Source of the DNA: Massilia aquatica
GTDB lineage: Bacteria; Pseudomonadota; Gammaproteobacteria; Burkholderiales; Burkholderiaceae_D
Length of the DNA: 64,000 bases
Reading direction: 5' to 3'
Assembly: GCF_011682045.1 (NCBI RefSeq)
Contig: NZ_VVIW01000005.1
Location: 62,001 to 126,000 of the forward strand
Part shown: positions 7 to 61,372 of the stretch, piece after piece
How positions within the stretch are numbered: position 1 is the stretch's first letter
How the letters are laid out: each line of letters begins with the position of its first letter
Program-made: the position numbers and the translations under genes
Notes under the pieces: generated by a model
The model's database searches: none
What the model saw: the letters and a program-made list of their open reading frames with translations, nothing else
What the model was told of the DNA's origin: nothing

Positions 7-492
7 ATGTCAGCGCTCACTTACCCACAGCCGTTCTGGCGTTATCTGCTGCTGTTTCAATCCTGGTCGCAACTGGGATCATGGCTGATCATCGTGCTGG
101 CGAGCACCTTGCCGCTGCACGCGCTCCTGATGGGGCAGGAAGGGGCGCCGCCGTTGGCGGGGCTTCTGTGCGGCACGGCGCTGGGCTCGCTGGTGTCGGT
201 GTGCATGGTCCTGCCGGCGCGGTTTTCCGTGGCGCACGCTGATGCGGCAAGCATGCGCAGCCTGCTCGCTACGCTGGCACGCCTGGGATATGTGAAAGAC
301 CAGCGCACTGGCGCAAGCGTTGTTTACCTTCAAAAACTGCCGCGTATCTTGCGCTGGAACGAGGGCACCGTAACGATCGCCCAGCTCCACGGCACGATCG
401 TGGTCAGCGGCCCGCGCTTTATTGTCGGATGGATGCGTAAGGACCTCCTGAAGGCCGCGCCTACATGCGTTCCTGGAAATGTTCCTAATTAA
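7..492 (+). CDS. Small membrane protein, unknown function
   Basis: This 161-residue protein is not one I recognise. Two hydrophobic stretches, about residues 20-41 and 48-68, look like a pair of membrane helices, followed by a soluble C-terminal half of about 90 residues rich in basic residues. This suggests a small inner-membrane protein with a cytoplasmic tail. The ATG at base 7 is the first available start, but the upstream context is cut by the window edge, so it may start earlier. The TAA stop lies inside a copy of a dispersed repeat (487-510), so the last residues may be repeat-derived. Confidence 0.6.
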   Translation: MSALTYPQPFWRYLLLFQSWSQLGSWLIIVLASTLPLHALLMGQEGAPPLAGLLCGTALGSLVSVCMVLPARFSVAHADAASMRSLLATLARLGYVKDQRTGASVVYLQKLPRILRWNEGTVTIAQLHGTIVVSGPRFIVGWMRKDLLKAAPTCVPGNVPN

Positions 493-510
493 AGCTCTGA
501 CCCCGGTTGT
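487..510. repeat. Dispersed 3'-end repeat, copy A
   Basis: This 24-base sequence contains CTCTGACCCCGGTTGT. It is an exact reverse complement (24 of 24) of 18411-18434, downstream of dnaE2. It starts inside the last codons of the preceding ORF and provides its TAA stop. Related GGGGTC(A/T)GACCCC cores occur at 11042-11126 and elsewhere in the window, always at gene 3' ends. Confidence 0.8.
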
Positions 511-608
511 AGGAAAGTGCTGCAGTTTTGCGTCGGAATGTCGGTCTTCCACAGGATGAGAGGGGGAGGCTGCACACGATAAGACTTGCCAAATTGGCAG
601 TCAGCGAG

Positions 609-628
609 TACTGTATAAACATACAGTA
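609..628 (+). promoter_or_regulatory. LexA (SOS) box upstream of imuA
   Basis: The core CTGTATAAACATACAG at 611-626 is a full CTG-N10-CAG LexA site, and with its flanks it forms a 20-bp palindrome beginning TACTG and ending CAGTA. It ends 16 bases before the imuA ATG. An equivalent box precedes dnaE2 at 15168-15187. It is inferred that LexA represses imuA-imuB until DNA damage. Confidence 0.93.
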
Positions 629-644
629 CTTTGTTGACCCCACC

Positions 645-1352
645 ATGAATTCCCCCGATTTTCTTGCCGCGCCAGAGACTTTGCATCCCGCCCTGTGGCG
701 CGCTTCCCAGCTGGCCCGCGCGGGCACGCGCTGCGTCGACAGCGGCCATCCCACCTTGTCGCCCCAGCTGCCCGGCGGCGGCTGGCCGAGCGGCTGCCTG
801 GTCGAATTGCTGCTGCAGCAGAGCGGCATTGGCGAATTGCGCCTGCTGCGACCGGCCCTGGCCAAGGTGGCCGAACGCCGTATCGTGTTGTTGCAGCCGC
901 CCCATCCACCGCAGGCGCTGGCGCTGGCCGCGCTCGGGTTGCCGCCCTCCCAGCTGATCTGGGTGCGCAGCACGCGCAATGCCGATGCCCTGTGGGCCGC
1001 CGAACAGGTGCTGCGCAGCGGCAGCTGCGGCGCGCTGCTGTTCTGGGCCAGCCATGCCCGTCCCGAGTCCTTGCGCCGCCTGCACCTGGCGGCCCAGGGC
1101 GGCGAAGCCCTGTTCTTCCTGCTGCGCCCGCTCGCGGCGGCGCAGGATGCTTCACCCGCGCCGCTGCGCCTGAGCCTGCGTCCGGCTCTCGGCGGGCTCG
1201 ACATCGGTTTCGTCAAACGCCGGGGGCCGCAGCGCGACGCGCCCCTGTTTCTTCCCCTGAATCCTTCTTTACTTCAACGCCATGCGACTCTGGATCGGCC
1301 TTTACTTGCCCCGGCTACCGCTCGACGTGTTCAGCCCGCACTGGTCGGCTGA
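645..1352 (+). CDS. imuA: ImuA, translesion synthesis accessory protein (RecA-like)
   Basis: ImuA is the RecA-related accessory protein of the ImuA-ImuB-DnaE2 damage-induced mutagenesis system. The 235-residue protein has the characteristic start (LHPALWRASQLARAG) and a Gly-rich LPGGGWPSG segment near residues 42-50. It then has a degenerate P-loop region in which GIGE (61-64) stands where an ATPase would have GKT, as expected for this family. I chose the ATG at 645 because it follows the LexA box; an upstream in-frame start at 528 would put the operator inside the gene. The 3' end overlaps imuB by 71 bases, so translation is probably coupled. The DnaE2 partner is not adjacent but lies at 15222. 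Confidence 0.88.
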   Translation: MNSPDFLAAPETLHPALWRASQLARAGTRCVDSGHPTLSPQLPGGGWPSGCLVELLLQQSGIGELRLLRPALAKVAERRIVLLQPPHPPQALALAALGLPPSQLIWVRSTRNADALWAAEQVLRSGSCGALLFWASHARPESLRRLHLAAQGGEALFFLLRPLAAAQDASPAPLRLSLRPALGGLDIGFVKRRGPQRDAPLFLPLNPSLLQRHATLDRPLLAPATARRVQPALVG

Positions 1353-2778: not shown

Positions 2779-2842
2779 GGCGTCCGGTACGGCGGCCATC
2801 CCGGGTTAAGATGGTCGGATTCATTATTGATAAGGAGCAGGG

Positions 2843-3604: not shown

Positions 3605-3664
3605 GGAGGCGGGGAAACGGGACGAGACTGGACGAAACGGGAAGGGAAGAAACGAAAAGGCAGG

Positions 3665-3687: not shown

Positions 3688-3719
3688 TAAAACGTTGCTA
3701 GATAAAATGAGCGACGCGC

Positions 3720-9061: not shown

Positions 9062-9724
9062 ATGCGGCTGTTGCTGGTGGAAGACGATACGATGATTGGC
9101 GAAGTGGTGCTCGACCTGCTCAGGGCCGAGCACTACGCGGTCGACTGGGTCAAGGATGGCGAAATGGCCGACACGGCCTTGCGCCAGTCGCAAAACTACG
9201 ACCTGGTCCTGCTCGACCTGGGCTTGCCGCGCAAGGATGGCCTGGAAGTGCTGCGCGCCATGCGCACGCGCAAGGACCGCACCCCGGTGCTGGTGGCGAC
9301 CGCGCGCGACGCGGTCGAGCAGCGCATCGCCGGCCTCGACGCCGGGGCCGACGATTATGTCCTCAAACCCTACGACCTCGACGAACTGCTGGCGCGCATC
9401 CGCGCCTTGCTGCGCCGTGCCGCCGGACGCGGCGAACCGATCTTCGAATACAAGGCCATCAGCATCAATCCGGCCACCCGCGAAGTGCAGGTCGACGGCG
9501 TGCCGGTGACCTTGTCGGCGCGCGAATGGGCGGTCCTGGAAGCCTTGATTGCGCGTCCCGGCGTGGTGCTTTCGCGGGCCCAGCTGGAAGAAAAGCTGTA
9601 CAGCTGGCGCGATGAAGTGAGCAGCAACGCGGTGGAAGTGTACATCCACGGCTTGCGCAAGAAGCTCGGCAGCGATCTGATCCAGAACGTGCGCGGGGTC
9701 GGCTACATGGTGCCCAAACTATGA
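9062..9724 (+). CDS. OmpR-family response regulator
   Basis: This is a DNA-binding response regulator of about 220 residues. The receiver domain shows the acidic pair Asp8/Asp9, phosphoacceptor Asp52 in LLDLGLP and the conserved Lys in VLKPYD. The C-terminal winged helix includes LSAREWAVLEAL and VEVYIHGLRKKLG, typical of the QseB/TctD/PmrA group. The ATG at 9062 is better spaced from the AGAAGGA ribosome site than the GTG at 9059. The stop overlaps the kinase start by 4 bases, so the two are translationally coupled. Confidence 0.93.
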   Translation: MRLLLVEDDTMIGEVVLDLLRAEHYAVDWVKDGEMADTALRQSQNYDLVLLDLGLPRKDGLEVLRAMRTRKDRTPVLVATARDAVEQRIAGLDAGADDYVLKPYDLDELLARIRALLRRAAGRGEPIFEYKAISINPATREVQVDGVPVTLSAREWAVLEALIARPGVVLSRAQLEEKLYSWRDEVSSNAVEVYIHGLRKKLGSDLIQNVRGVGYMVPKL

Positions 9725-11103
9725 ACCTGGCGCACTCGCTGCGCGGCCGTCTGTTGTGGTTTTTGCTCGCGGCCATCAGTATCGCCGCCGTGGCGCAAGC
9801 GTCGATCGCCTATCGCACGGCGCTGTCCGACGCCGACCAGATTTTCGATTACCACATGCAGCAGATGGCGCTGTCGCTGCGCTCCAGCGCGCCGCTGTCG
9901 AACAACACCGACACCGCCGCGACCGTGGAAGCGGACGCCGAGAACAACGAGCTGATGGTGCAGGTCTGGACCCCGGACGGGGTGCGCGTGTTCCGCACCG
10001 TTTCGCGCACCAACTTGCCGCAGCACGCGGTGCTGGGCTTTTCCAACGTCAAGGCCAACAACACCACCTACCGCGTGTTTTCGGTGCAAAGCAGCACCCA
10101 GACCCTGCAGATCGCCCAGGACATGGCGGTGCGGCGCAACATGGCCGGCAACCTGGCCCTGCGCACGGTCGGCCCGATCGCGGTGATGATGCCGATCCTG
10201 ATGCTGGTCGTGTGGTGGGTCGTGAGCGGCTCGCTGCAACCGGTCTCGCGCGTGCGCACCCAGGTGGCGGCGCGCCAGGCCGACGACCTCTCGCCGGTGT
10301 CGGAAGCGGACTTGCCGGACGAAGTGCTGCCGCTGGTGCAGGAATTGAACCTCCTGTTCGGGCGCGTGAAAACCGCCTTCGACGCCCAGCAGCATTTCGT
10401 GGCCGACGCCGCGCACGAGCTGCGCACACCCTTGCAGGCGCTCAAACTCCAGGTGCTGAGCCTGGAGCGGGCCGACAGTCCGGAAGCGCGCGGGGTGGCG
10501 GTGGGAAGGCTGACGGCCGGCATCGAGCGCGCCACCCGGCTGGTCGAGCAATTGCTGGTGCTGGCGCGCCAGGAAGCGAGCGCGGCCAGTGGAGTGAAAA
10601 CCCAGCCGGTCGAGCTGGCCGACCTGGCCAAACGCGCCCTGGCCGACCTGGCGGGCGCGGCGCAGACGCGCGGCATCGACCTGGGCCTGGCGCGTGCCGA
10701 TCCGGTGCAGGTGGCGGGCCAGCCCGACGCGCTGATGATCATGCTGCGCAACCTGATCGACAACGCCCTCAAATACACACCGGCCGGCGGCACGGTCGAC
10801 ATCAGCGTGACGGGGGAGGGCAAGGGAGCTGCGCTGGTGGTGGAAGACAGCGGGCCGGGCATACCAGCCGACGAAAGGGAGCGGGTATTCAACCGTTTCT
10901 ACCGCATCGCCGGCAGCGAGGCCAGTGGCAGCGGTCTGGGGCTGGCGATCATCAAAGCGATCGCCGAACGGCATGGCGCCAGGTTAAGCTTGGGCGAATC
11001 GGCCAAGCTGGGCGGCCTGAGCGTGCGCATCGACTTCCCCAAGGGGTCAGACCCCGGTTTTTCAGTGAGGGGTCTGACCCCGGTGTCACCGGAGTCGAGA
11101 TAA
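9721..11103 (+). CDS. Sensor histidine kinase
   Basis: This 460-residue membrane kinase is the partner of the preceding regulator. It has an N-terminal helix (about 10-30), a periplasmic sensor region, and a second helix near 150-170 (IAVMMPILMLVVWWVVSG). The dimerisation box is FVADAAHELRTPLQALK, and the ATPase motifs are NLIDNALKYTP, VEDSGPGIP and GSGLGLAI. The last 20 or so residues (after VRIDFP) are encoded by a dispersed GGGGTCAGACCCC repeat and probably replace the native C-terminus. The signal is unknown; the adjacent DegQ-like protease suggests envelope stress. Confidence 0.92.
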   Translation: MNLAHSLRGRLLWFLLAAISIAAVAQASIAYRTALSDADQIFDYHMQQMALSLRSSAPLSNNTDTAATVEADAENNELMVQVWTPDGVRVFRTVSRTNLPQHAVLGFSNVKANNTTYRVFSVQSSTQTLQIAQDMAVRRNMAGNLALRTVGPIAVMMPILMLVVWWVVSGSLQPVSRVRTQVAARQADDLSPVSEADLPDEVLPLVQELNLLFGRVKTAFDAQQHFVADAAHELRTPLQALKLQVLSLERADSPEARGVAVGRLTAGIERATRLVEQLLVLARQEASAASGVKTQPVELADLAKRALADLAGAAQTRGIDLGLARADPVQVAGQPDALMIMLRNLIDNALKYTPAGGTVDISVTGEGKGAALVVEDSGPGIPADERERVFNRFYRIAGSEASGSGLGLAIIKAIAERHGARLSLGESAKLGGLSVRIDFPKGSDPGFSVRGLTPVSPESR

Positions 11104-11126
11104 AGGGGTCTGACCCCGGTGTTACC
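11042..11126. repeat. Dispersed 3'-end repeat, triple copy B
   Basis: Three GGGGTC(A/T)GACCCCGG cores lie at 11042-11057, 11069-11085 and 11105-11126. The first two are translated as the C-terminus of the kinase, and its TAA stop sits between the second and third. The cores are self-complementary and could form short hairpins. Confidence 0.8.
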
Positions 11127-11180
11127 TTTAATCAACGGTGCCATGGATCCCGCCCTCGCGGGGAAGACGGTGCCATACGC

Positions 11181-11732
11181 CTACTTCTTGATAATCGCCT
11201 GCAACAACGCAAACGCCTCATGCCGGATCGCCGCATCGGCAGCCGCCAGTTCCTTGCGTGCCTGCACCAGCGCCGGCTTTTTGAGCATCTTCTTTTCCGC
11301 CGCGTTCGGCACCGGCGGTTCCGGCGGGAACATGCTGGCCCGGCTGTTATACGTCTGCTGCAACAAACGCTTGCCATAATCCGACGCATAAAACGCTGTC
11401 AGTTCATTGGCCGCCTCGGTCCCGATGACGCGCGCCACCGGCAGCGCCAGGCGCTTGTAAATCTCCTGCGGCGTCACCTTGTCGAGCTTGGCGAACACAC
11501 TGTCGCGCTGTTGGTCATTCACATACCGGCTCGCACCGGCCACCGAGCGCATCATTTTTTCCGACTGCATGGCTTCCAGCATGGCTTGCACCGCCTGGAC
11601 CCGGGCGGCATCGGGCGTTGCCACCGGCACCGACGCACCCGGGGTGGCGGCAGGCGCGGCGGCCGGCGCGGCCTGGGAAAGCGGCGCGCAGGCCAGCAGT
11701 GCGGCCAGGGTCAGCGCGTAAGATCGTTTCAT
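11181..11732 (-). CDS. DUF2059-like secreted protein
   Basis: This exported protein has 183 residues from the ATG at 11732, which follows a GGATGAAGAA ribosome site. It starts with a signal peptide (MKRSYALTLAALLACAPLSQA), then an Ala/Pro-rich linker, then a helical domain containing ELTAFYASDYGKRLLQQ, which matches the DUF2059 pattern. Its biochemical role is not established. It lies downstream of the TonB receptor on the same strand but beyond that gene's terminator, so it is probably transcribed separately. Confidence 0.75.
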   Translation of the reverse strand: MKRSYALTLAALLACAPLSQAAPAAAPAATPGASVPVATPDAARVQAVQAMLEAMQSEKMMRSVAGASRYVNDQQRDSVFAKLDKVTPQEIYKRLALPVARVIGTEAANELTAFYASDYGKRLLQQTYNSRASMFPPEPPVPNAAEKKMLKKPALVQARKELAAADAAIRHEAFALLQAIIKK

Positions 11733-11794
11733 TTCTTCATCCTTTTCAACAGTCACAGGGCTGCCCGTCAACGGGCCAGCCGACACAATAATGC

Positions 11795-11831
11795 AAAAGG
11801 GCAGGCCAGGTCGACGCGACCCGGCCTGCCC
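11795..11831 (-). terminator. Terminator of the TonB receptor gene
   Basis: On the minus strand GGGCAGGCC pairs with GGCCTGCCC (11799-11807 with 11823-11831) and is followed by TTTT. It lies 24 bases after the receptor stop codon. Confidence 0.72.
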
Positions 11832-11854
11832 ATCACCTTTAGCGAGCGCTACGC

Positions 11855-14239
11855 TTAAAACTTATGCCACAGGCGGGCGAAATACGAGGCGCCGTTCATG
11901 CCGAACTGCACCGACTCGTACTTGAAGCCGTTGTCGGTCTGGTCCGGGTCCTGCTCGGTCGGCTTGACATTGAAAATATTCGCGCCGCCCACGGTCAGCT
12001 TGGTCTTGTCGCTGAAATTATACGTAAAACTCAGGTCGGCCGAGGTCTTGGCCTTGTACACCTGGTTCGGGGTCGGAGGGCCGGACCAGGTGCCGAGGGT
12101 TTGCTTGCCGAAGTGGATCACCTTGAAATCGGTGCCGATCTTGCCCAGCGAATACTCGAAGCCCAAGGTCGCCTTGCGCCGCGGTCCGCCCTGTTCCAGG
12201 AACAGGCGCTCGCGCTGGGACAGCAGCACGTCTTCATAGCCCTTGAAGGCGGCCGGCGCATTCACCCCGGTCACTTCGGTCTTGCTGATGTTCATGGCCA
12301 GGAAGGTATTGAGCTTGCCGCCGGCCAGCTCGCTGCGGTTCGAGACCGTCAGATCGAGGCCTTGCGTCTTGGTATCGATCGAGTTGACGAAGAACTGGGC
12401 CGCGCCCACGCCCAGGGTGCTCAGCAGCGGTACGATCGGCGCGTAGTTGTTGGCGTCGAAACGGCCCGAGAACACGATGCGGTCGTCGATCGCAATGCGG
12501 TACAGGTCGGCCGTGACCGAGGTGGTCGGGGTCGGCGTCCAGGTGCCGCCCAGGGTGAAGCTGACCGACTCTTCTTCCTTCAGCTTGGGAATGCCGATCG
12601 CATTGGCGACGTTGCCGCCGTTCGGCGCGAACACCGAATCGACCGGATTGCCGTTGACGAACTCGGTGAACGTCGACGAGAAAAACGCCTGTTGCAGCGA
12701 CGGTGCGCGGAAACCCGTGCTGGCCGAGCCACGCAGCAAGATCGCATCGCTGATCTTGTAAGCCGCCGCCAGCTTGCCGGTGACGCTGTTGCCGAAGTCG
12801 CTGAATTTCTCGTAACGCACGGCCGACAGCACTTTCAGGCGCTCGGTGACATCGGTCTCGACATCGATGTAGGCCGCCATGCTATGGCGGCTGCGGTCGG
12901 TCGCGTCGCTCGGGCGGAAGCCCGGGAAACCCTGGCTGCCCGGGTCGCCGCCGAAGCCGGGACCGTCGACATCGTTGTAGGAACCGGCTTCGCCGGCGAA
13001 GATTTCGTAGTTTTCCTTGCGGAACTCGGCGCCGAAGGCCAGGTTCAAGCCGCTTAAGATGCCCGGAAAGAAACGGCTGGCATCGGCGTTGGTGGTCAGT
13101 TGCATGGCGGCAAAACCGCCGGCATCGAATTGCGAAGCCGACACGCCCTTGCCGCCCTTGAGCAGGTCGGCGTTGGCAATCGAGGCATTCAGCGTATTGC
13201 TGATGTTGTAAAGCATCTTGTTGTAGCCGTAGGTCTGCGAGAAGTCCGCATTCCACTCGCCCAGCTTGGCGCGATAGCCGACCGTGCCGTAATGGTCGTC
13301 GATATCGGCATTGATGTACGGTGCGAAACCGTTCGGATACATGGCTTGCGCATTGCGCACCGGAATCTGGTCCGGACCGCGGCCGAACGCGGCCGACGAC
13401 GCATCGCGCTTCTGGGTGCCGGCCGTGAAATACAACTTGCCGTCGACCATGGGAATCTCGCCGTTCAGGTACAGGGTCTGGTTGTTCACCTTGCTGTCGC
13501 CGATGGTGCGCAGGCTGCCCGCGTCGGCCCGGTTCGAGCGGCCACGGTCCAGATATTCGGCCGTGATGCCGACCACGCCGCCAGCGACTGCCACGCCGCA
13601 ATAGGCCGAGGCCAGGTAGTTCTCGCCGTCGCCGGCCGAATACTGGCCCGCGCCGAGCACGCTCTCGCAGCCCAGCGATTTTTTCAGGTCGATATTGATG
13701 ACGCCGGCGATCGCGTCCGAGCCGTACTGGGCGGCGGCGCCATCGCGCAGCACCTGGATGTTCTTCACCGCCAGCAGCGGAATCGCATTCATGTCGGTGC
13801 CGGTGTTGCCGCGGTTGCGCGCGCCGAAAATGTTCACCAGCGAGGTGCTGTGACGGCGCTTGCCGTTCATCAACACCAGGGTTTGATCCGAGCCCAGGCC
13901 GCGCAGGGCGGCCGAGTCGACCAGGTCGGCGCCGTCGGCCCCGCTCTGGCGCGTCGAGTTGAACGATGGCGAGATGTAGGTGAGCGTCTGGGCCAGGTCG
14001 AACTGGCCGCCCTGCTCGGCCAGGCGGGTCATGGGAATCAGGTCGACCGGGACCGCCGTATCGGTGGCGGAGTTGGCCGAGACGCGGCGTGAACCCACCA
14101 CGCTGACGCTGGGGATGACTTCTTCCTTGGCGGCTGGCTGGCCCGACTGGGCGAAACTGGCGGGGGCATACACGGCGAGAGCGGCACTGCCATACAAAGC
14201 GAGCAAGACGGACCTACGTAAAGTGGTGGGGGTGAACAC
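11855..14239 (-). CDS. TonB-dependent outer-membrane receptor
   Basis: This 794-residue outer-membrane transporter takes up a siderophore, sugar or other large ligand using TonB energy. It has a signal peptide (cleaved near ASFAQ), a TonB-box-like region followed by a plug domain with LRGLGSDQTLVLMNGKRR and QVLRDGAAAQYGSDAIAG, then a beta-barrel ending in the aromatic C-terminus WHKF. The start is a GTG after CGGAGA. No convincing Fur box is visible upstream, and no sugar or siderophore genes adjoin, so the ligand cannot be assigned. Confidence 0.92.
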   Translation of the reverse strand: MFTPTTLRRSVLLALYGSAALAVYAPASFAQSGQPAAKEEVIPSVSVVGSRRVSANSATDTAVPVDLIPMTRLAEQGGQFDLAQTLTYISPSFNSTRQSGADGADLVDSAALRGLGSDQTLVLMNGKRRHSTSLVNIFGARNRGNTGTDMNAIPLLAVKNIQVLRDGAAAQYGSDAIAGVINIDLKKSLGCESVLGAGQYSAGDGENYLASAYCGVAVAGGVVGITAEYLDRGRSNRADAGSLRTIGDSKVNNQTLYLNGEIPMVDGKLYFTAGTQKRDASSAAFGRGPDQIPVRNAQAMYPNGFAPYINADIDDHYGTVGYRAKLGEWNADFSQTYGYNKMLYNISNTLNASIANADLLKGGKGVSASQFDAGGFAAMQLTTNADASRFFPGILSGLNLAFGAEFRKENYEIFAGEAGSYNDVDGPGFGGDPGSQGFPGFRPSDATDRSRHSMAAYIDVETDVTERLKVLSAVRYEKFSDFGNSVTGKLAAAYKISDAILLRGSASTGFRAPSLQQAFFSSTFTEFVNGNPVDSVFAPNGGNVANAIGIPKLKEEESVSFTLGGTWTPTPTTSVTADLYRIAIDDRIVFSGRFDANNYAPIVPLLSTLGVGAAQFFVNSIDTKTQGLDLTVSNRSELAGGKLNTFLAMNISKTEVTGVNAPAAFKGYEDVLLSQRERLFLEQGGPRRKATLGFEYSLGKIGTDFKVIHFGKQTLGTWSGPPTPNQVYKAKTSADLSFTYNFSDKTKLTVGGANIFNVKPTEQDPDQTDNGFKYESVQFGMNGASYFARLWHKF

Positions 14240-14333
14240 GCGACGGTCTCCGGGTTTTTATTAGAAAGGAGATTGATTCTAATGCAATTTCCATGGCCGC
14301 CGTCCAGCACGTTGTGGCGCAATGACAACGTTG

Positions 14334-15131
14334 TCAATACCCGTTGACGGCCTCGGCGCGTCCGCCCACCAGGATCAGATTTCCTTCGAAGCGGGTGCGG
14401 ATCAGGCAGGGCGCGCCCAGTGCACCACCCTGATGCACCGTGATGGTGCGGCCCAGATGGGCCGCCAGCGCGCCCGCCGCCACGCCGGTGGCGCGGTCTT
14501 CCATGGCGGGATCGAGATGGTTGAAGTTGCGCCCTTCGTAGGTGTGCTCGCCACTGCGCCACAGCACGTAGCAGCCGTTGACCCCGTGTTCGCGGCTCCA
14601 CGCGACGATGCGCTCCAGCGGCGGGCGCAGGGCGTGCAGGGTGGCGCGCTCTGGCACTTCGATCAGCAGCTTGGGACTGCCGACCGAGGCCAGCACCGGC
14701 GTGCTGGCCAGGATCAAGCCGGGCTGGTCCAGCAGCCACGCGGCCAGCGCGGCATCGAGCGCGAGCGCAGGGACGGGCTGGGCTTGCAGCGCCACAAAAT
14801 AGTCCTCTCCCTCGCGCCTCAGCAGCAGGGCTTGCCCGCGCATCGCCGTGCTCAGCACGATTTCCTGCGGCGCCTGCCCGGCGCGCCCGAACAGCACCTG
14901 CGCCGCGCCCAGGGTGGCGTGCAGGCACAGGGGACTCCTGGCATGCGGATAGTAATAGTCGGCGATGACTGCCCCATCCGGTCCGGCATCGAAAAACACG
15001 CAGGCCGGATACGGCTGCGCGCGCGCCAAGGCCTGGCGCGCATCGGGCGTGGCCGGCCCGCCCTCGATCACCAGCGCCATGTTGCCATGACCGGGCGATG
15101 CACCAAAACAGCGCACCAGATGAGTCTGCAT
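14334..15131 (-). CDS. PhzF-like isomerase family protein
   Basis: This 265-residue protein has the PhzF two-lobed layout. The N-terminal FGASPGHGNMALVIE resembles the family's GNP motif, and SPLCLHATLGAAQVLF corresponds to the usual PLCGHATLAAA motif. The segment that normally carries the catalytic Glu (SETAF) reads PACVFFD, so the usual acid/base appears to be missing. The reaction is therefore uncertain. Its start lies 37 bases from the LexA box of the divergent dnaE2, so the SOS operator might also affect it. A GACAACGTTGTC palindrome at 14324-14335 overlaps its stop. Confidence 0.7.
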   Translation of the reverse strand: MQTHLVRCFGASPGHGNMALVIEGGPATPDARQALARAQPYPACVFFDAGPDGAVIADYYYPHARSPLCLHATLGAAQVLFGRAGQAPQEIVLSTAMRGQALLLRREGEDYFVALQAQPVPALALDAALAAWLLDQPGLILASTPVLASVGSPKLLIEVPERATLHALRPPLERIVAWSREHGVNGCYVLWRSGEHTYEGRNFNHLDPAMEDRATGVAAGALAAHLGRTITVHQGGALGAPCLIRTRFEGNLILVGGRAEAVNGY

Positions 15132-15167
15132 AGTAATTCCCAATTGGTAAGAAAATGGCCGGAGGTA

Positions 15168-15187
15168 TACTGTGTTTCCATACAGTA
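15168..15187 (+). promoter_or_regulatory. LexA (SOS) box upstream of dnaE2
   Basis: CTGTGTTTCCATACAG at 15170-15185 fits CTG-N10-CAG, flanked by TA on both sides just as in the imuA box. It ends 34 bases before the dnaE2 ATG, so SOS control of the polymerase is very likely. Confidence 0.9.
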
Positions 15188-15221
15188 GTTTCCCTGATAA
15201 ATTTGATTGTAATATTTTTCC

Positions 15222-18200
15222 ATGAGTACCGCCGCCCCCGCCCCCAGCCTGCCCGATTACGCCGAGTTGTATTGTTTGACCAACTTTTCCTTCCTTCACG
15301 GCGCTTCCCATGCAGAAGAACTGGTGGCCCGCGCCGTCCAGCTCGGGTACTCGGCGCTGGCGATTACCGACGAATGTTCGCTGGCGGGGGTGGTGCGGGC
15401 CCACGCCGAAGCCAAAAAGGCGGCGCTGCCCCTGATCATCGGCGCCCACTTCCACCTGTGCAACGCTGATGGCAGCGCGGCCCTGTCGCTGATCCTGCTG
15501 GCCCAGAACCGCAATGGCTACGGCAACCTGGCCGAGTTGATCACCCTGGCGCGCACGCGCAGCGCCAAGGGCACCTATCTGCTCACGCCGGCCGATCTGG
15601 CCGCGCCCGCCGCCTGTGCCCACCTGGCCGGCATGCCCGACTGCCTGGCGATCTTGCTGCCCGCCTATCCCGGCCATGACCCGGCCGACCTCGACCGCCT
15701 GCATACCCAGGCCGCCTGGATCGCCGCCACCTTTCCCGGGCGCGCCTGGCTGGGCCTGAACCTGCTGCACCGCGCGTTTGACGAAGCGCACCGCGCCACG
15801 GTTGACGAAGTCGCCTGGCAGCACGGCCTGGCGGTGGTGGCGCTGGGCCACGTCTGCATGCACGTGCGCTCGCGCAAGCCGCTGCACGACACCCTGTGCG
15901 CGATCCGCCTCAACACGCCCGTGGCCGAGTGCGGCTACGAGCTGGCGCAAAACGCCGAACAGCACCTGCGCGCGCGCCTGCGCCTGGCCAATCTGTACAG
16001 TCCCGAAGCGCTGGCCGAAACGGTGCGCATCGCGCACCTGTGCACGTTTTCGCTCGACCAGCTGCGCTACGAATATCCCGATGAACTGGTGCCGCCCGGC
16101 CACACTGCGTCCGGCTACCTGCGCGCCGAAACCTACATCGGCGCGCACCACCGCTTTCCTCTCGGCATACCGGCCAAGGTCCAGGAACAGCTCGAAATCG
16201 AACTCCAGCTGATTGGCGAACTGCGCTACGAACCCTACTTTTTGACGGTGTACGACATCGTGCGCCATGCGCGCTCGATCGGGATCTTGTGCCAGGGGCG
16301 CGGCTCGGCCGCCAACTCGGCCGTCTGCTATTGCCTCGGCATTACCGAAGTCGACCCCGCGCGCGGCAATTTGCTGTTCGGACGCTTCATTTCCAAGGAA
16401 CGGGACGAGCCGCCCGACATCGATGTCGACTTCGAACACCAGCGGCGCGAAGAAGTGATCCAGTACATCTACAACAAATACGGCCGCACCCGCGCCGCCC
16501 TGGCCGCCGTGGTGATCAGCTACCGCCCCAAGAGCGCCCTGCGCGACAGCGGCAAGGCGCTCGGGGTCGACCTGGCCATCGTCGAAAAAGTCGCCAAGAC
16601 GCACCACTGGTTCGACAGCAAGGACGACCTGGTCAGCCGCCTGGCCGAATGCGGGCTCGATCCGGACTCGCCGCTGGCCCAGCAATGGGCCACCCTGGCG
16701 CAGCGCCTGCTCGGCTTTCCGCGCCACCTGTCGCAGCATCCGGGCGGCTTTGTGATTGCCGCCGGCAAGCTCTCGCGCCTGGTGCCGATCGAAAACGCCA
16801 CCATGCTTGACCGCAGCGTGATCCAGTGGGACAAGGACGACCTCGAAGAGCTCGGCTTGCTGAAAGTCGATGTGCTGGCGCTCGGCATGCTCTCGGCGCT
16901 GCGGCGCGCGCTCGACCTGGTGGGCGAGCTGCGCGGCACGGTGTTTTCGCTGCAAGACATTCCGGCCGAAGACCCGGCCACCTACGACATGATTTGCGCG
17001 GCCGACACGGTGGGCGTCTTCCAGATCGAATCGCGCGCGCAGATGAGCATGCTGCCGCGCATGCTGCCGCGCACCTTTTACGATCTGGTGATCGAAGTGG
17101 CGGTGGTGCGGCCGGGGCCGATTCAGGGCGGCATGGTCCATCCCTACCTGCGCCGGCGCCAGGGGCTGGAAAAACCCGACTACCCCAAGGAGGAATTGAA
17201 GGAAGCGCTGGAACGCACCCTTGGCGTGCCGATCTTCCAGGAGCAGGTGATGCAGGTGGCCATGATCGCGGCTGATTTCACGGCGGGTGAAGCCGACCAG
17301 CTACGGCGTGCCATGGCCGCCTGGAAACGCAAAGGCGGGCTGGAAAAATACTATGGCAAGATCGTCGAGGGCATGCTGGGCAAGGGTTACACCCTGGAAT
17401 TTGCCGAATCGATCTTCAACCAGATCAAGGGTTTCGGCGAATACGGCTTTCCCGAATCGCACGCGGCCAGCTTCGCGCTGCTGGCCTACGCCAGTTCCTG
17501 GCTCAAGTGCCACGAACCGGCCGCCTTCCTGTGCGCCTTGCTCAACAGCCAGCCGATGGGCTTCTACAGCCCCTCGCAACTGGTGCAGGATGCGCGCCGC
17601 CACGGCATCGAAGTGCGCGCGGTGGACGTGGCCATCAGCGGCTGGGATTCCAGCCTGGAAGTGGGGCAGGGCAGCCAGCCCGCCGTGCGGCTGGGGCTGT
17701 CGCTACAGCGCGGGATGCGTCCCGACGCGGCGGCGCGCATCGAAGAAGCGCGCGCCGTGCAGGCCTTCGAGAGCGTGGCCGACCTGGCGCGCCGGGCCGC
17801 GCTGGACCGGCACGACCTGCAAGTACTGGCGGGCGCCAATGCGCTGCACGGCTTGTCGGGCAACCGGCGCCAGGCGCTGTGGCAAGCGGTGGGCGCGGTC
17901 CCCGACAAGGACTTGCTGCGTCCCACCACGCCGATTGAGGACGCACCGCTGCTCGACGCCCCGAGCGAAGGCGAAGAAATTGTCGGCGACTACCGGTCGC
18001 AGGGATTGACCTTGGGGCGGCACCCGCTGGCGCTACTGCGCGCGCGTTTGCTCGACCAGCGTTTTTTACCGGCGTCGCAACTGAACGAATTCAAGCAAGG
18101 GCAACTGGCGCGCGCCTGCGGCATCGTCACGGTACGGCAACGTCCGGCCACCGCCAAGGGCGTACTGTTCGTCACCATCGAAGACGAAACCGGCAATGTG

Positions 18201-18383
18201 AACGTGATTGTCTGGCCGACCCTGGTGGAACAACAGCGGCGTGAAGTGCTGGGAGCGAGTTTGCTGGGCGTGTACGGCGTGTGGCAGCGGGAAGGGGAAG
18301 TGCGGCACCTGGTGGCCAAGCGCCTGGTGGACATGAGCCACCTGATGGGCCGGCTTGACACCAGCAGCCGCGATTTCTGCTGA
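15222..18383 (+). CDS. dnaE2: DnaE2 (ImuC), error-prone DNA polymerase III alpha
   Basis: This is the C-family polymerase that performs translesion synthesis with ImuA and ImuB. At 1053 residues it is shorter than replicative DnaE, as expected. The N-terminal PHP domain starts YAELYCLTNFSFLHGASH. The palm motif PDIDVDFEHQRREEV carries the catalytic aspartates. The fingers, (HhH)2 and OB-fold regions follow, the last including VRQRPATAKGVLFVTIEDETG. The frame is intact. It has its own LexA box, and the normal partner genes imuA-imuB are about 12.4 kb upstream. Confidence 0.95.
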   Translation: MSTAAPAPSLPDYAELYCLTNFSFLHGASHAEELVARAVQLGYSALAITDECSLAGVVRAHAEAKKAALPLIIGAHFHLCNADGSAALSLILLAQNRNGYGNLAELITLARTRSAKGTYLLTPADLAAPAACAHLAGMPDCLAILLPAYPGHDPADLDRLHTQAAWIAATFPGRAWLGLNLLHRAFDEAHRATVDEVAWQHGLAVVALGHVCMHVRSRKPLHDTLCAIRLNTPVAECGYELAQNAEQHLRARLRLANLYSPEALAETVRIAHLCTFSLDQLRYEYPDELVPPGHTASGYLRAETYIGAHHRFPLGIPAKVQEQLEIELQLIGELRYEPYFLTVYDIVRHARSIGILCQGRGSAANSAVCYCLGITEVDPARGNLLFGRFISKERDEPPDIDVDFEHQRREEVIQYIYNKYGRTRAALAAVVISYRPKSALRDSGKALGVDLAIVEKVAKTHHWFDSKDDLVSRLAECGLDPDSPLAQQWATLAQRLLGFPRHLSQHPGGFVIAAGKLSRLVPIENATMLDRSVIQWDKDDLEELGLLKVDVLALGMLSALRRALDLVGELRGTVFSLQDIPAEDPATYDMICAADTVGVFQIESRAQMSMLPRMLPRTFYDLVIEVAVVRPGPIQGGMVHPYLRRRQGLEKPDYPKEELKEALERTLGVPIFQEQVMQVAMIAADFTAGEADQLRRAMAAWKRKGGLEKYYGKIVEGMLGKGYTLEFAESIFNQIKGFGEYGFPESHAASFALLAYASSWLKCHEPAAFLCALLNSQPMGFYSPSQLVQDARRHGIEVRAVDVAISGWDSSLEVGQGSQPAVRLGLSLQRGMRPDAAARIEEARAVQAFESVADLARRAALDRHDLQVLAGANALHGLSGNRRQALWQAVGAVPDKDLLRPTTPIEDAPLLDAPSEGEEIVGDYRSQGLTLGRHPLALLRARLLDQRFLPASQLNEFKQGQLARACGIVTVRQRPATAKGVLFVTIEDETGNVNVIVWPTLVEQQRREVLGASLLGVYGVWQREGEVRHLVAKRLVDMSHLMGRLDTSSRDFC

Positions 18384-18410
18384 TCCTACAAGAAAAAGCA
18401 GCAAAGTCCC

Positions 18411-18434
18411 ACAACCGGGGTCAGAGCTTTAATT
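18411..18434. repeat. Dispersed 3'-end repeat, copy C (inverse of copy A)
   Basis: This is the exact reverse complement of 487-510 over 24 bases, 28 bases after the dnaE2 stop. Together the two copies bracket the imuA-to-dnaE2 segment in inverted orientation. Confidence 0.85.
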
Positions 18435-18441
18435 CGCAACT

Positions 18442-18466
18442 AGTTGCAAAACCGGGGACAGACCCC
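18442..18466. repeat. Dispersed 3'-end repeat, copy C2
   Basis: It contains TTGCAAAACCGGGG followed by ACAGACCCC. The same TAGTTGCAAAACC start is found at the stop codons of ftsB (23721) and the pullulanase gene (61372, minus strand). Confidence 0.8.
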
Positions 18467-18497
18467 TGATGCCCCTGACCACAAATCTCAAAACCGT

Positions 18498-18708
18498 CTT
18501 TCCTGCCACTGGCAGAAAAGACTTCCTGCCACTGGCAGAAAAGACTTCCTGCCACTGGCAGAAAAGACTTCCTGTCACTGGCAGAAAAGACTTCCTGCCA
18601 CTGGCAGAAAAGACTTCCTGCCACTGGCAGAAAAGACTTCCTGCCACTGGCAGAAAAGACTTCCTGCCACTGGCAGAAAAGACTTCCTGCCACTGGCAGA
18701 AAAGACTT
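18498..18708. repeat. Nine tandem 23-bp palindromic units
   Basis: The 13-base core CTGCCACTGGCAG begins at 18503, 18526, 18549, 18572 (one T change), 18595, 18618, 18641, 18664 and 18687. The period is an exact 23 bases with nearly identical linkers. Each core is a 6-bp inverted repeat around one base, so each unit can fold into a small hairpin. No spacers vary, so it is not a CRISPR array. Confidence 0.95.
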
Positions 18709-18730
18709 CCCGCGCAGGCGGGAATGACGG
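18707..18730. repeat. Dispersed hairpin repeat (GCAGGCGGGAAT type), copy 1
   Basis: TTCCCGCGCAGGCGGGAA is a hairpin followed by TGACGG. The same block in inverse order appears at 23774-23800, next to a matching AGTTAAG-type flank. Confidence 0.7.
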
Positions 18731-18750
18731 AGCTTAACTTAGCGGCATTA

Positions 18751-18772
18751 GCGACAGACCCCGGTTCTGCAA
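18751..18772. repeat. Dispersed 3'-end repeat, copy D
   Basis: On the minus strand this reads TTGCAGAACCGGGG followed by TCTGTCGC, starting 3 bases after the stop codon of the PRC-barrel gene. Confidence 0.75.
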
Positions 18773-18775
18773 GTT

Positions 18776-19177
18776 TTACAGCGCGTTGGTGCCGTAGTAG
18801 CTGTGAATCTGGCTCGACCATTGCTGGTTGGCCATGTCCGGCCAGTGATCGGTATCGAAACCTGGCGCATTGTCGATGCGCTCTTTTTCGATGTCCAGCG
18901 TGAAGCGCTTGTTGGCCGTGTCGAGCGTCAAGGCAGCCCAAGGCACCGCGAACAATTTTTCACCAATGGTCAGCACGCCACCGCTCGACATGACTGCATA
19001 CGCAATCTTGCCAGTACGCATGTCGAGCATGATTTCCTTGATTTCACCGAGGTGCTCGTTTTTCAGATTGTGCACGTGGTCGCCGATCAGCGTATCCGCG
19101 CCCATCAGTTCCGGACCGGGGCCTTTCGAGCCTTTGTCGACATACATGCCATAAGCATCGCGTTCTTCGTAGGACAT
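18776..19177 (-). CDS. PRC-barrel domain protein
   Basis: This 133-residue protein contains a PRC-barrel fold from about residue 28: LIGDHVHNLKNEHLGEIKEIMLDMRTGKIAYAVMS, then the LTIGEKLFAVPWAALTLD motif typical of stress-associated bacterial PRC-barrel proteins. There is no signal peptide. A strong AGGAGG ribosome site lies 6 bases before the ATG. Such proteins are often induced by stress, but no specific activity can be claimed. It stands alone, with repeats immediately after its stop. Confidence 0.85.
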   Translation of the reverse strand: MSYEERDAYGMYVDKGSKGPGPELMGADTLIGDHVHNLKNEHLGEIKEIMLDMRTGKIAYAVMSSGGVLTIGEKLFAVPWAALTLDTANKRFTLDIEKERIDNAPGFDTDHWPDMANQQWSSQIHSYYGTNAL

Positions 19178-19362
19178 TTTGACCTCCTGTGGTAAAAGTT
19201 CAATACTGAGGCTTGAGCAAGGTCATGTCTGTTCGCTGGCGCACACCGAATGAATCATCGACAATCTTTCAAATTGATTAATTTGGAATGCCGGAGGTAG
19301 CCGTCCGCTCTGCCGTTGTTGCTGTTTTTTACCTTGTTTTGCGGAAGCATTGGCCGGTTTAA

Positions 19363-21938
<2,576 letters not shown>

Positions 21939-21998
21939 GTTTGCGTCGCTTTACGTAGTGCGGCAGGCGCCGCCGTCCCGATCGCCCTGACAGATGCA

Positions 21999-22028
21999 GG
22001 CGGACCGTTCGCGGTCCGCCCACCTTTT
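21999..22028 (+). terminator. Rho-independent terminator after kdsA
   Basis: GGCGGACCG and CGGTCCGCC form a 9-bp stem closed by a TTCG tetraloop, followed by CACCTTTTTC. It separates pyrG-kdsA from eno, though readthrough is possible. Confidence 0.82.
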
Positions 22029-22048
22029 TCTTACCCTTTGGAGATTGA

Positions 22049-23335
<1,287 letters not shown>

Positions 23336-23384
23336 GCCGACCGCATCGGCTGGCCACGCGCCGGCCGGTGCCATCCTCCCCGCC

Positions 23385-23723
23385 ATGCGCCTCATTACGC
23401 TCGTTCTTGCCACCCTCCTGATCCTGATTCAACTGCCGCTCTGGCTGGGCAAGGGCGGCTGGCTGCGCGTGGGCGAACTGGAAAACCAGGTGATGGTCGC
23501 GCAGCGCAAGACGGTCGAACTGAAGGCGCGCAACGCCAAGCTCGACTCCGAAGTGCACGACCTGACCAACGGCACGGGCGCGGTGGAAGAACGCGCGCGC
23601 TTCGAGCTCGGCATGATCAAGAAGAACGAGATCTTCATCCAGATCCTCGATGCCAACGGCCACCCCAAAGAATCGGCCACCCCGCTCCCGCCGGTCAAGC
23701 CCGACGCCAGGACTACCCCATAG
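23385..23723 (+). CDS. ftsB: Cell division protein FtsB
   Basis: FtsB is a bitopic divisome protein that works with FtsL and FtsQ at the septum. The 112-residue protein has an N-terminal membrane helix (about residues 2-20), a coiled coil ([32 protein letters not shown]) and the conserved [17 protein letters not shown] segment. The TAG stop is the first codon of a dispersed TAGTTGCAAAACC repeat, so the proline-rich tail may have been altered by repeat insertion. Confidence 0.9.
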
Positions 23724-23737
23724 TTGCAAAACCAGGA
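23721..23737 (+). repeat. Dispersed 3'-end repeat, copy E (supplies ftsB stop)
   Basis: TAGTTGCAAAACCAGGA begins with the ftsB stop codon. The order of blocks after it (AGCCGC, GTTAACTTAAGC, CCGTCATTC, hairpin) parallels the sequence downstream of the PRC-barrel gene. Confidence 0.75.
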
Positions 23738-23773
23738 CAGCCGCCAAAGCCGCCAAAGCTGTTAACTTAAGCG

Positions 23774-23800
23774 CCGTCATTCGCGCGCAGGCGGGAATCC
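23774..23800. repeat. Dispersed hairpin repeat (GCAGGCGGGAAT type), copy 2
   Basis: CCGTCATTCGCGCGCAGG followed by CGGGAATCC is the same element as 18707-18730 in inverse orientation, with one mismatch in the hairpin. Confidence 0.7.
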
Positions 23801-23890
23801 AAGGCATCTTTGCTAAGCGGCGGTGCCTCGGTCCTCCCATCCGCGCGGCCCGCTTCCCGTCACCGGTCCCCTTCATTTCAACAATTTACA

Positions 23891-23936
23891 TTGACAAGCC
23901 CGCTCAATCGGTATTTAATTTCTGTAACGACAGAAA
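23891..23936 (+). promoter_or_regulatory. Sigma-70 promoter with overlapping palindromic operator
   Basis: TTGACA (23891-23896) and TTTAAT (23914-23919) are spaced by 17 bases. The palindrome TTTCTGTAACGACAGAAA (23919-23936) has perfect 7-bp arms and covers the expected transcription start. It lies immediately upstream of a GbsR/MarR-like gene, so autoregulation of the operon is a natural inference. Confidence 0.8.
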
Positions 23937-23956
23937 TGAATGAAATTGGAGAAATG

Positions 23957-24499
23957 ATGGCACTGGGACCAACCGAACAGAAATTCGTCCTGCACTGGGG
24001 CGAGATGGGTACGCGCTGGGGCGTGAACCGCACCGTGGCGCAGATTCACGCGCTGCTGTTCCTCGCCAACCGCCCGCTGGCCGCCGAGGATATCGCCGAG
24101 GCCTTGTCGGTCGCGCGCTCGAACGTGAGCAACAGCCTCAAGGAGCTGCAAAGCTGGAACCTGATCCGCGTTACCCATCTGATGGGCGACCGCCGCGATC
24201 ACTTCGTCGCCCTGCAGGATGTGTGGGAGATCTTCCGCGTCATCGTCGAGGAGCGCAAACGGCGCGAGATCGATCCGACCCTGACCGTGCTGCGCGAATG
24301 CGCCATCGAGGGCGATACCGACAGCGCGCTCGAACCAGCCTCGCTGGCGCGCATGAACGAGGTGCTCACTTTCCTCGACATGCTCGGCACCACCTACGAC
24401 GATTACAAGCACCTGCCGCCGGCGACCTTGCAGCGCTTCCTGAAGATGGGCGGCAAAGTGGCGCGCTTTCTCGGACCGGACGACAAGGCCCCATCATGA
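23957..24499 (+). CDS. GbsR/MarR-family transcriptional regulator
   Basis: This winged-helix regulator has about 180 residues. It contains WGVNRTVAQIHALLFLANRPLAAEDIAEALSVARSNVSNSLKELQ, the GbsR-type MarR helix-turn-helix, followed by the wing with MGDRRDHF and a C-terminal helical part. I chose the ATG at 23957 because it follows TTGGAGA; the ATG at 23936 lies inside the operator and lacks a ribosome site. It overlaps the next gene by 4 bases and probably represses its own five-gene operon. The ligand is unknown. Confidence 0.87.
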   Translation: MALGPTEQKFVLHWGEMGTRWGVNRTVAQIHALLFLANRPLAAEDIAEALSVARSNVSNSLKELQSWNLIRVTHLMGDRRDHFVALQDVWEIFRVIVEERKRREIDPTLTVLRECAIEGDTDSALEPASLARMNEVLTFLDMLGTTYDDYKHLPPATLQRFLKMGGKVARFLGPDDKAPS

Positions 24500-57816: not shown

Positions 57817-57842
57817 GTCCTCATGCACTAGCAACACCCCGG

Positions 57843-57902
57843 GGAGGGCGCGGCGCCTTGCGCTGCCCTCCCTGCACCGGGAACCAGCCCGACGGTTCCC
57901 GG
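57843..57902 (+). terminator. Two hairpins between ahpC and ahpF
   Basis: GGAGGGC/GCCCTCC (57843-57871) and CCGGGAACC/GGTTCCCGG (57877-57902) are consecutive stem-loops; only TCTTAATT follows. They may attenuate or stabilise rather than fully terminate. Confidence 0.5.
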
Positions 57903-57936
57903 TCTTAATTCAAGGCACTTTCTTACGGATATCAAC

Positions 57937-59538: not shown

Positions 59539-59566
59539 TTCCGGGCTTGCTTCGCTGTTTCGCAAA

Positions 59567-59594
59567 AACGCCCGGCATCGACCGGGCGTTGTTG
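59567..59594. terminator. Bidirectional terminator between ahpF and the aldehyde dehydrogenase
   Basis: AACGCCCGG and CCGGGCGTT form a 9-bp stem. GTTGTTT follows on the plus strand and TTTTTG follows on the minus strand. It serves convergent genes. Confidence 0.72.
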
Positions 59595-59603
59595 TTTGCC
59601 TGC

Positions 59604-61034
59604 TTACACGCCGCAGTAGGCCGTCTTCACTGTCGTAAAGAACTCGGCCGCGTGGGTGCCCTGTTCGCGCGAGCCGTAGCTCGACCCTTTGCGCCCGCCA
59701 AACGGCACGTGGTAGTCGACGCCCGCAGTCGGCACGTTGACCATCACCATGCCCGCTTCGGCGTGGCGCTTGAAGTGGGTCGCATACTTGAGCGAGGTGG
59801 TGACGATGCCGCTGGCCAGACCAAACTCGGTATCGTTGGCCATCGCCAATGCGTGCTCGTAGCTGTCGGCCGGAATGACCATGCCCACCGGGCCGAAGAT
59901 TTCTTCGCGGCTGATGCGCATGTCGTTGCTGCATTCGGTAAACAGGGTGGGGCGCAGGAAAAAGCCCGGCGTGGCGCACTCGATGCGGTCGCCCCCAAAC
60001 GCCAGGGTGGCGCCTTCCTCGCGGCCGATGCCGATGTATTCCATATCCTGGTCGAGCTGGCTCTGGTCGACCACCGGGCCGATGTCGATGCCGGCGCCGA
60101 GCGCGTCGCCAACGGTCAGGGCGGCCAGCTTTTCTTTCATGGCGGCCACAAAAGCCGGGTAGATGCCTTTTTCGACGATCAGGCGGCTCGACGCCGTGCA
60201 GCGCTGGCCGGTCGAGAAGAACGAACCCTGCACCGCGCAGTTCACCGCAGTGGCGAGGTCGGCGTCGTTGAGCACGATCAGCGGATTCTTGCCGCCCATC
60301 TCGATCTGCACTTTGGCCATGCGTCCGATGGCGGCCGATGCCACCTTGGCGCCGGTCGCGGCCGAGCCGGTGAAGCTGATCGCGTTGACGCGGCGGTCAT
60401 GCAGGAAGGCCTGGCCGACCACGCTGCCGCGCCCCATCACCAGGTTGAACACGCCCGGCGGCAGGCCGGCGCGGCTGATGATTTCGGTCAAGGCCCAGAC
60501 GCTGGCCGGCACCAGTTCGGCCGGCTTGATCAGCACGCAGTTGCCGTAGGCCAGCGCGGGGGCGATTTTCCAGGATGGGATGGCGATCGGGAAATTCCAC
60601 GGCGCGATGATGCCGACCACGCCGACCGGCTCGCGCGTGACTTCCACGTCGAGATTGGGGCGCACGGACGGCAGCTTGTCGCCGCGCAGGCGCAGGCATT
60701 CCTGGGCGAAGAATTTGAAGATGGCGCCGGCGCGGGCGACTTCGCCGATGCCTTCGGGACGGGTCTTGCCTTCTTCGCGCGAGAGCAGGGTGCCGAGCTC
60801 TTCTTTGCGGGCCAGGATTTCGCTGCCGATCTTGTCGAGCGCGTCGGCGCGCACCTGGATGTTGGACAACGCCCAGCCAGGAGCTGCGGCAGCGGCGGCG
60901 GCAATCGCCAGCTCGGTCTGCTGCGCGTCGGCCTGGGCGTAGTGGCCGATGATGTCGTTCGTGTTCGATGGGTTGATGTTGGCGGACGACGAAGCGCCGT
61001 CGACCCAGGCGCCGTTGATATAGTTCTGTTTCAT
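59604..61034 (-). CDS. NAD(P)-dependent aldehyde dehydrogenase (semialdehyde type)
   Basis: This 476-residue aldehyde dehydrogenase has catalytic Cys279 in GQRCTASSR, Glu245 in EMGGKNP, Asn147 in APWNFPI and Lys170, so the active site is complete. The sequence around FTGSAATG and GRKGSSYGSREQG resembles alpha-ketoglutarate-semialdehyde or succinate-semialdehyde dehydrogenases. No pathway neighbours help to decide. AAAGC and TTCCATG precede the start weakly. Confidence 0.9.
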   Translation of the reverse strand: MKQNYINGAWVDGASSSANINPSNTNDIIGHYAQADAQQTELAIAAAAAAAPGWALSNIQVRADALDKIGSEILARKEELGTLLSREEGKTRPEGIGEVARAGAIFKFFAQECLRLRGDKLPSVRPNLDVEVTREPVGVVGIIAPWNFPIAIPSWKIAPALAYGNCVLIKPAELVPASVWALTEIISRAGLPPGVFNLVMGRGSVVGQAFLHDRRVNAISFTGSAATGAKVASAAIGRMAKVQIEMGGKNPLIVLNDADLATAVNCAVQGSFFSTGQRCTASSRLIVEKGIYPAFVAAMKEKLAALTVGDALGAGIDIGPVVDQSQLDQDMEYIGIGREEGATLAFGGDRIECATPGFFLRPTLFTECSNDMRISREEIFGPVGMVIPADSYEHALAMANDTEFGLASGIVTTSLKYATHFKRHAEAGMVMVNVPTAGVDYHVPFGGRKGSSYGSREQGTHAAEFFTTVKTAYCGV

Positions 61035-61369
61035 GGAAGCTTTCTACGTGGCTCGCAAGGGCTCGCGATGCGTGTTTATGAAAAAACAAGAGCTTACCAT
61101 CGCGGGGGGAATGCTGCCGCAGGCAGGGCGCAGATCAGGGGCTGTTGTGCCGATTGCGGCGCTTGCCGCTCCTTGAAGTAACTGGCGGTAGGCGCCACTT
61201 CGGTGGCGAAACGCAGCTTGGGTGTGGCATCGTGGCGCGTGCCCGGCTTGGTGCTGATGGCCGCGGTTGCGCTCGCCGTTACCCATGAAGCGGCCGACGT
61301 TCTCGGCGCCGGTGGACGCCGTTGTCGATCGGGAACGTGCAAAACCGGGGTCTGTCCCCGGTTTTGCAA
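61035..61369. other. Intergenic region with 3'-end repeat
   Basis: About 335 bases hold no supported gene. A dispersed hairpin repeat (61337-61369) directly follows the pullulanase stop. ORFs here are short and unconvincing. Confidence 0.6.
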
Positions 61370-61372
61370 CTA
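61339..61372 (-). repeat. Dispersed 3'-end repeat, copy F (supplies pullulanase stop)
   Basis: On the minus strand the sequence begins with the TAG stop, then TTGCAAAACCGGGG, ACAGA, and CCCCGGTTTTGC: a perfect 12-bp stem with a 5-base loop. It is the most complete copy in the window. Confidence 0.85.

Follow-up and report, generated by a model that had tools for sequence, protein, structure and literature searches.

The window analysed here is a 64,000-nucleotide (nt) stretch of the 7.47 Mb draft genome of Massilia aquatica (G000; contig C55, 62001-126000), and it carries copies of short repeats in and around the 3' ends of several genes. These repeats are most likely repetitive extragenic palindromic (REP) elements of a system in the broad sense in which REPs are associated with a REP-associated tyrosine transposase (RAYT), not of the GTAG-tagged kind. 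Copies were present at all of the positions listed in an earlier note, which had placed them in one dispersed family. Reading of the flanks did not bear this out, and the copies were instead divided into three REP-like families, A, B and C, whose unlikeness in both sequence and distribution rules out a single repeat family. Searching the genome with GGGGWCWGWCCCC returned 62 places, against 0 for the reversed control pattern, and the family assignment as well as the placement sample of family A are based on the 50 listed of these 62 palindrome places, read with their flanks. Family A, GTTGCAAAACC-GGGG-ACAGA-CCCC-GGTTTTGCAAC, is a near-perfect palindrome of 35 nt and accounted for 38 of the 50 places, while family B, GGGGTC(A/T)GACCCC, accounted for 12 and often occurred as doublets. 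Family C, AACCGGGGTCAGAGCTTTAATT, is not a core palindrome and was tallied separately. Within the window, the palindrome core (at most 2 mismatches) was found five times against 1.5 expected, a number reached in 3 of 100 shuffles, and TTGCAAAACCGGGG was found seven times against 0.6 expected, which none of 100 shuffles reached. An Rfam search of the window gave 0 matches.

All three families border genes in the window. A family C copy on the minus strand (487..513; also C55:62487-62506) supplies the TAA of a 161-residue open reading frame (ORF; 7-492, plus strand), and a second one, on the plus strand (18415..18434), lies 31 nt past the stop of a DNA polymerase III alpha-type gene (15222-18383). 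Family B is concentrated at a kinase gene (9721-11103), where one core (11043..11055, plus) and the second core of the doublet (11069..11081, minus) are translated within the gene, and a further core (11105..11117, minus) lies directly 3' of its stop. Family A is represented by a 5' part whose right arm is missing (18443..18466, plus), a 3' part whose left arm is missing (18754..18772, plus) just outside the stop of the gene at 18776-19177 (minus), a fragment, GTTGCAAAACC (23723..23733, plus), whose G is the final base of the ftsB TAG, and a near-complete copy (61337..61370, minus) adjoining a pullulanase-type gene (61370-63955, minus).

The placement of the copies was compared with genes from a codon-usage caller, on which the stop distances depend, over 674,624 bases that included the window and were 87% coding. 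Among the sampled copies, none of the 38 of family A, 2 of 12 of family B and 1 of 21 of family C were coding, so that A was not equally common inside genes; equal frequency there would have counted against the reading of the earlier note, by its own terms. Convergent spacers held 17 of the 38 family A copies, tandem spacers 15 and divergent spacers 6, for which spacer length predicts proportions of 0.245, 0.45 and 0.305, respectively. The median distance from A to the nearest stop was 38.5 nt, whereas placing copies at random within these spacers gives 57.7 (P 0.007). In 24 of 32 cases, the ACAGA of the loop has the same sense as the gene whose stop is nearest. The enrichment of A downstream of genes thus stood, but the wording that the repeats are placed exactly at gene 3' ends was too strong, since no more than 18 of the 38 sampled copies had a stop within 60 nt. 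Of the 15 copies in tandem spacers, only 9 were in the stop-proximal half. The downstream location of A is a preference and no rule. For family B, the distance to the stop was not shorter than chance (36 versus 44.5, P 0.19, n=10).

Comparisons across 17 genomes of the genus, six of which are close relatives (G002, G003, G005, G007, G009 and G016) with 89-96% identity over long matches to window 9700-24500, showed that the families differ in their distribution. The A sequence CGGGGACAGACCCC was counted 49 times in G000, 41 in G008, 39 in G004, 9 in G001, 6 in G006, 2 in G010 and once in G009, with 0 in ten genomes; among the close relatives, the single match in G009 was the only one, the other five having 0. 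The matches in G004 and G008 probably represent another REP type, as judged from the lack of any AACCGGGGACAGACCCCGGTT match within 1 mismatch. A family-wide core search (at most 1 mismatch) matched 27 of 392 genomes, and among the places listed, at most ten for each genome, exact matches were in G000 and G009 only. Family C was counted 39 times in G000 and 108, 81, 110, 84, 116 and 81 times in G002, G003, G005, G007, G009 and G016, respectively, and was at 0 in the other ten genomes. Family B, searched as CACCGGGGTCAGACCCC, was found in G000 (6), G002 (4), G003 (10), G005 (5), G007 (8), G009 (14), G014 (3) and G006 (1), and gave 0 in the nine other genomes of the genus, G016 included. In the spacer orthologous to the window site at 18415, C was found in G002, G003, G005, G007 and G009 and was not detected in G016.

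Many of the A sites coincide with sites where the relatives carry C. Thirty A clusters, corresponding to 29 sites with the RAYT locus counted twice, were comparable in at least one relative each. The relatives had C at 18 of the 29 sites (19 clusters), only B at 2, and none of the three families at 9 by the first scoring; for one of these nine, window 61347, G009 carries an A-type copy, which left 8 of 29 without any REP in the relatives compared. At 6 of the 18 shared sites, G000 retains C beside A. In relatives' spacers of at least 60 nt, C was present in 41 of 73 that are orthologous to A sites and in 1 of 95 others in the same stretches (Fisher 6e-18, a value inflated by the counting of several relatives), and C was found in 0 of 85 spacers in twelve unselected stretches of G000. 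In the contrast among the relatives' spacers, the controls are only spacers near A sites, the copy pairs and relatives are not independent, and some compared segments are long and may exceed the spacer (800-900 nt in G003 at L033:16070 and L042). It is possible, at a little below an even chance, that A and C co-occur merely since both tolerate the same permissive spacers, with old and new copies unlinked. The 8 REP-free sites, which indicate that A enters fresh spacers, agree with such tolerance, as do the dependence of 4 of the 18 shared sites on a single relative with C and the length of the C-bearing spacers; but when only spacers of at least 200 nt in G003, G007 and G009 were considered, C was still found in 32 of 41 A-site spacers versus 1 of 35 others. 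As a separate observation, in the L033:4751 region of relatives G003, G007 and G009, C pairs lie ahead of the start of the right-hand gene and apparently also inside it, whereas G000 has a pair of A copies there.

The earlier note had suggested looking for a RAYT gene elsewhere in the genome, and one was present. A PF01797 search of the genome identified two Y1 genes, on contigs C11 and C19. The C11 gene (L026 13383-14066) encodes an IS200-like protein of 227 residues, a Y1 HUH transposase related to IS200/IS605, scores 53.1 bits against a cut-off of 23, and is bracketed by an inverted pair of family A palindromes, one of which closely follows the stop while the other lies upstream of the start, whereas the C19 gene has different flanking motifs. 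Family A itself has the features of a REP in a REP-RAYT system, namely a palindrome of 20-50 nt, many copies (49 cores), extragenic location and bracketing of the transposase gene, and the C11 RAYT would be the candidate enzyme for moving A. Across the genus, the RAYT flanks (L059-L072) showed each such RAYT with its own REP, many of which resemble GGTC(A/T)GACC in the core and GTT(G/C/T)C at the outer end.

In the six close relatives, the corresponding locus has the same neighbour genes and a RAYT flanked by C-type REPs, contiguously in G002, G003, G005 and G016 and split by contig ends in G007 and G009. Among themselves, the RAYTs of the relatives show 75-89% identity, but their identity to the C11 RAYT of G000 is only 56-58%, while the C19 RAYT is 92-98% identical across all seven genomes. 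On either side of the locus, the DNA matches at 86-94% identity, and this match extends as far as a segment of about 0.85 kb in which the RAYT lies. The simplest reading of these sequences would be that the RAYT allele and its REP type were exchanged together at this locus. It is rather unlikely that the RAYT and its REPs instead changed in place through fast coevolution without an allele exchange; the greater variation of this RAYT than of the second one even among the six relatives, together with the lack of a detected donor, is what such coevolution would leave, but G000 stands at 56-58% from all six relatives despite flanks as close as 92-94%.

We also examined the hairpin formed by family A. 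A complete copy has a 15-bp stem (-28.1 kcal/mol, z -9.2). In an alignment of 29 of the 38 copies, from which nine with a missing or interrupted arm were omitted, changes on both sides were found in 8 of 18 pairs, 5 in the 15-bp stem and 3 in flanking columns with mostly unpaired cells, where the counts refer to sequences and not to events. The covariation score of the stem was reached by 0 of 500 shuffles, and sliding the partner arm lowered the paired cells from 86.4% to 32-54%. The stem is thus maintained, be it through selection, through the mobility mechanism or through copying from one arm to the other. Family A also has the sequence anatomy of an intrinsic terminator, a GC-rich hairpin and a U-run, with the U-run inside the longer stem, and the alternative offered in the earlier note, a terminator-like element spread by a RAYT, fits this anatomy, in which the terminator role itself would be a prediction from sequence. 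That the hairpins are foremost terminators or mRNA 3'-end structures, selected and multiplied by recombination next to an incidental Y1 gene, is quite improbable, for A is tied to a single genome and the RAYT allele found there, divergent spacers hold 6 of the 38 copies and the split copy of the window (18400-18470) folds no better than shuffles (z -0.37), even though AAAACC-GGGG-loop-CCCC-GGTTTT resembles a bidirectional intrinsic terminator with a stable fold, A favours convergent spacers with its loop mostly in the sense of the nearest stop gene, and a long hairpin with a T-run at L028:5970-6045 and its orthologues (L190, L128 and L161) has kept its outer stem while no two of the four genomes share its apex core.

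Several further features were observed at and around A copies. The two halves of the split copy in the window are separated by an array of a 23-bp tandem unit (TTCCTGCCACTGGCAGAAAAGAC; 18477-18759). The spacer orthologous to window 18360-18790 has 3.8 kb extra in G016 (L091) and 1.7-2.4 kb extra in G002 and G005, and is 0.3-0.5 kb elsewhere. A second palindromic element of about 90 nt, which ends AATGCCGYTAA... and lies within CGTCATTCCCGC/GCGGGAATGACG, seems to insert into REP cores: a REP half directly follows 8 of 14 matches to its motif, at 7 places (window 18734-18762; L041 6083-6180; L122; L123; L125; L126; and L038 3287). A variant of A, in which one or the other arm is lengthened by GC-rich sequence (GGCGGCCGGCGAACC or close), was found at L019:6060, L030:5997, L033:16070, L042:6082 and L044:16585, and at L149 in G009.

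To what extent the repeats alter gene ends was assessed for the 28 genes with a stop at most 60 nt from an A or B core, 27 of which have an orthologue in the fetched stretches. The end was the same as in at least one of G003, G007 and G009 in 22 of the 27 genes (17 of 20 for A and 5 of 7 for B), and the five changed ends belong to L018 (one residue longer), L031:14802, L038:6133, L023 and the kinase. With 17 of the 20 testable A-side genes sharing the end of the orthologue, A mostly abuts genes, so the idea of an element that inserts at and rewrites gene ends did not hold as a rule and was retained for the kinase and some B or C genes; put the other way, orthologues without the repeat have the same C-termini at most A sites, which the earlier note had named as refuting its reading, but not for all genes. 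The stop of the 161-residue ORF does lie inside the repeat, as proposed, since the ORF ends inside the C copy in G000 and likewise in G007, in a comparison where the matches of five other relatives stop short of the ORF. C copies of the relatives also supply gene ends, such as QPGSDL* in G009 and LQPGSEL* in G007. For ftsB and the pullulanase-type gene, the proposed overlap amounts to one base shared between TAG and the A sequence; in the five relatives read, ftsB ends at the same residue with TGA, and the pullulanase TAG is in place in G007 and G003, both without the copy.

The kinase gene differs in this respect, and its reading frame does pass through two B copies, as the earlier note had stated. 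In G002 and G016 the protein ends KADAG and no B is present, in G009 and G007 the TAG at the front of B is the stop (seven residues earlier in G007), and in G003 the gene ends ahead of B. G000 has an AAG codon at the place of the TAG at the front of B, followed by 20 residues through two B cores. In these alignments, the kinase is the clearest case of a gene end rewritten by a repeat. Most REPs near stop codons thus do not alter the protein, and cases like the kinase are rare.

Taken as a whole, a REP-RAYT explanation, in which A was spread by the C11 RAYT, the allele was exchanged and C is no longer renewed, appears quite probable to us. From what is known of RAYT biology, the C11 Y1 transposase would most likely recognise the single-stranded A hairpin and spread A. 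The copies would persist mainly between and downstream of genes, and we propose that this is because insertions in genes and promoters get removed and because many copies sit where the older family C lies in the relatives. C would belong to the RAYT allele that the relatives carry at the corresponding locus, and G000 most likely exchanged this allele, ceased renewing C (39 copies versus 81-116) and gained about 50 copies of A. In a 3' untranslated region, the A hairpin may act as a terminator or mRNA-end structure, and individual copies at times supply a stop codon or take one away, as seen in the kinase.

A number of points weigh against this explanation. Transposition has not been observed. 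Both RAYTs have the NCBIfam REP-associated transposase model as their best match (NF047646 for the C11 gene) at 63.1 and 65.3, below its 80-bit cut-off. Family A has no GTAG (or GTGG) head 5' of the palindrome, the aligned copies starting with GTTG as part of the stem, and a change to GTTG abolished cleavage by the Stenotrophomonas enzyme (PMC8266576). G009 carries two A-type copies, one exact and one with 1 mismatch, beside a C-type RAYT, so that A is not confined to the RAYT of G000, and at 8 of the 29 A sites the relatives compared carry no REP. No donor of the RAYT was found in 392 genomes of the family, where the closest match (E 1e-75 or better) was 60% identical, or among named genomes, where the best full-length relative was 52% identical and records of or near G000 were possibly left out. 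No RAYT with B-like flanks was found in this clade, which leaves B as an orphan layer.

Within the REP-RAYT explanation, we tentatively suggest that the exchange of the RAYT allele converts the REP landscape in place, with the old REP sites serving either as conversion templates or as landing pads; the positions would then be passed on while the sequence type would switch. This suggestion, somewhat doubtful as it is, includes a AACCGGGG-CAGA core that the REP of the incoming RAYT shares with the old REP, and under it the old REPs would guide the new ones.

Downstream placement, REP-supplied stops and the orthoswitch have already been published, and the new variant is in-place turnover after allele exchange, of which no description was found in the REP/RAYT literature searched. 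The REP-RAYT systems of Stenotrophomonas, Pseudomonas and others (PMC2817692) resemble family A in an IS200/IS605-like Y1 gene bracketed by inverted REPs, in intergenic dispersal and in complementary stem changes, but A lacks the 5' GTAG/GTGG head, its stem reaches the element ends, and both RAYTs fall below the NCBIfam cut-off. REPs tagged with GTAG/CGTC (PMC3733652) likewise prefer convergent and unidirectional spacers, their ends are often TAG stops and some are inside ORFs, whereas neither tag is at the head of the A palindrome and the stop position predates the copy at most A sites. REPINs, or inverted REP doublets (PMC3116915), are paralleled by six inverted A doublets (L020, L021, L025, L035, L038 and L043), but the majority of A clusters consist of one palindrome, and two others, L030 and L033, are direct pairs; with 6 inverted and 2 direct pairs among 30 clusters, the inverted doublet is not the main unit of A. 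The closest parallel in the spread of a new type is the REP orthoswitch (PMC3686654), where a new REP type also spreads with its RAYT and the old type remains and decays. There, the flanking REPs are thought to mutate, in a mechanism that its authors termed speculative, whereas here the RAYT is an allele of 56-58% identity and new copies lie on old REP sites. The orthoswitch can be tested directly here, by comparison and in vitro, because seven close genomes offer a RAYT that was apparently exchanged, an old set of REPs that is shrinking beside a new one, and matched sites in the dozens.

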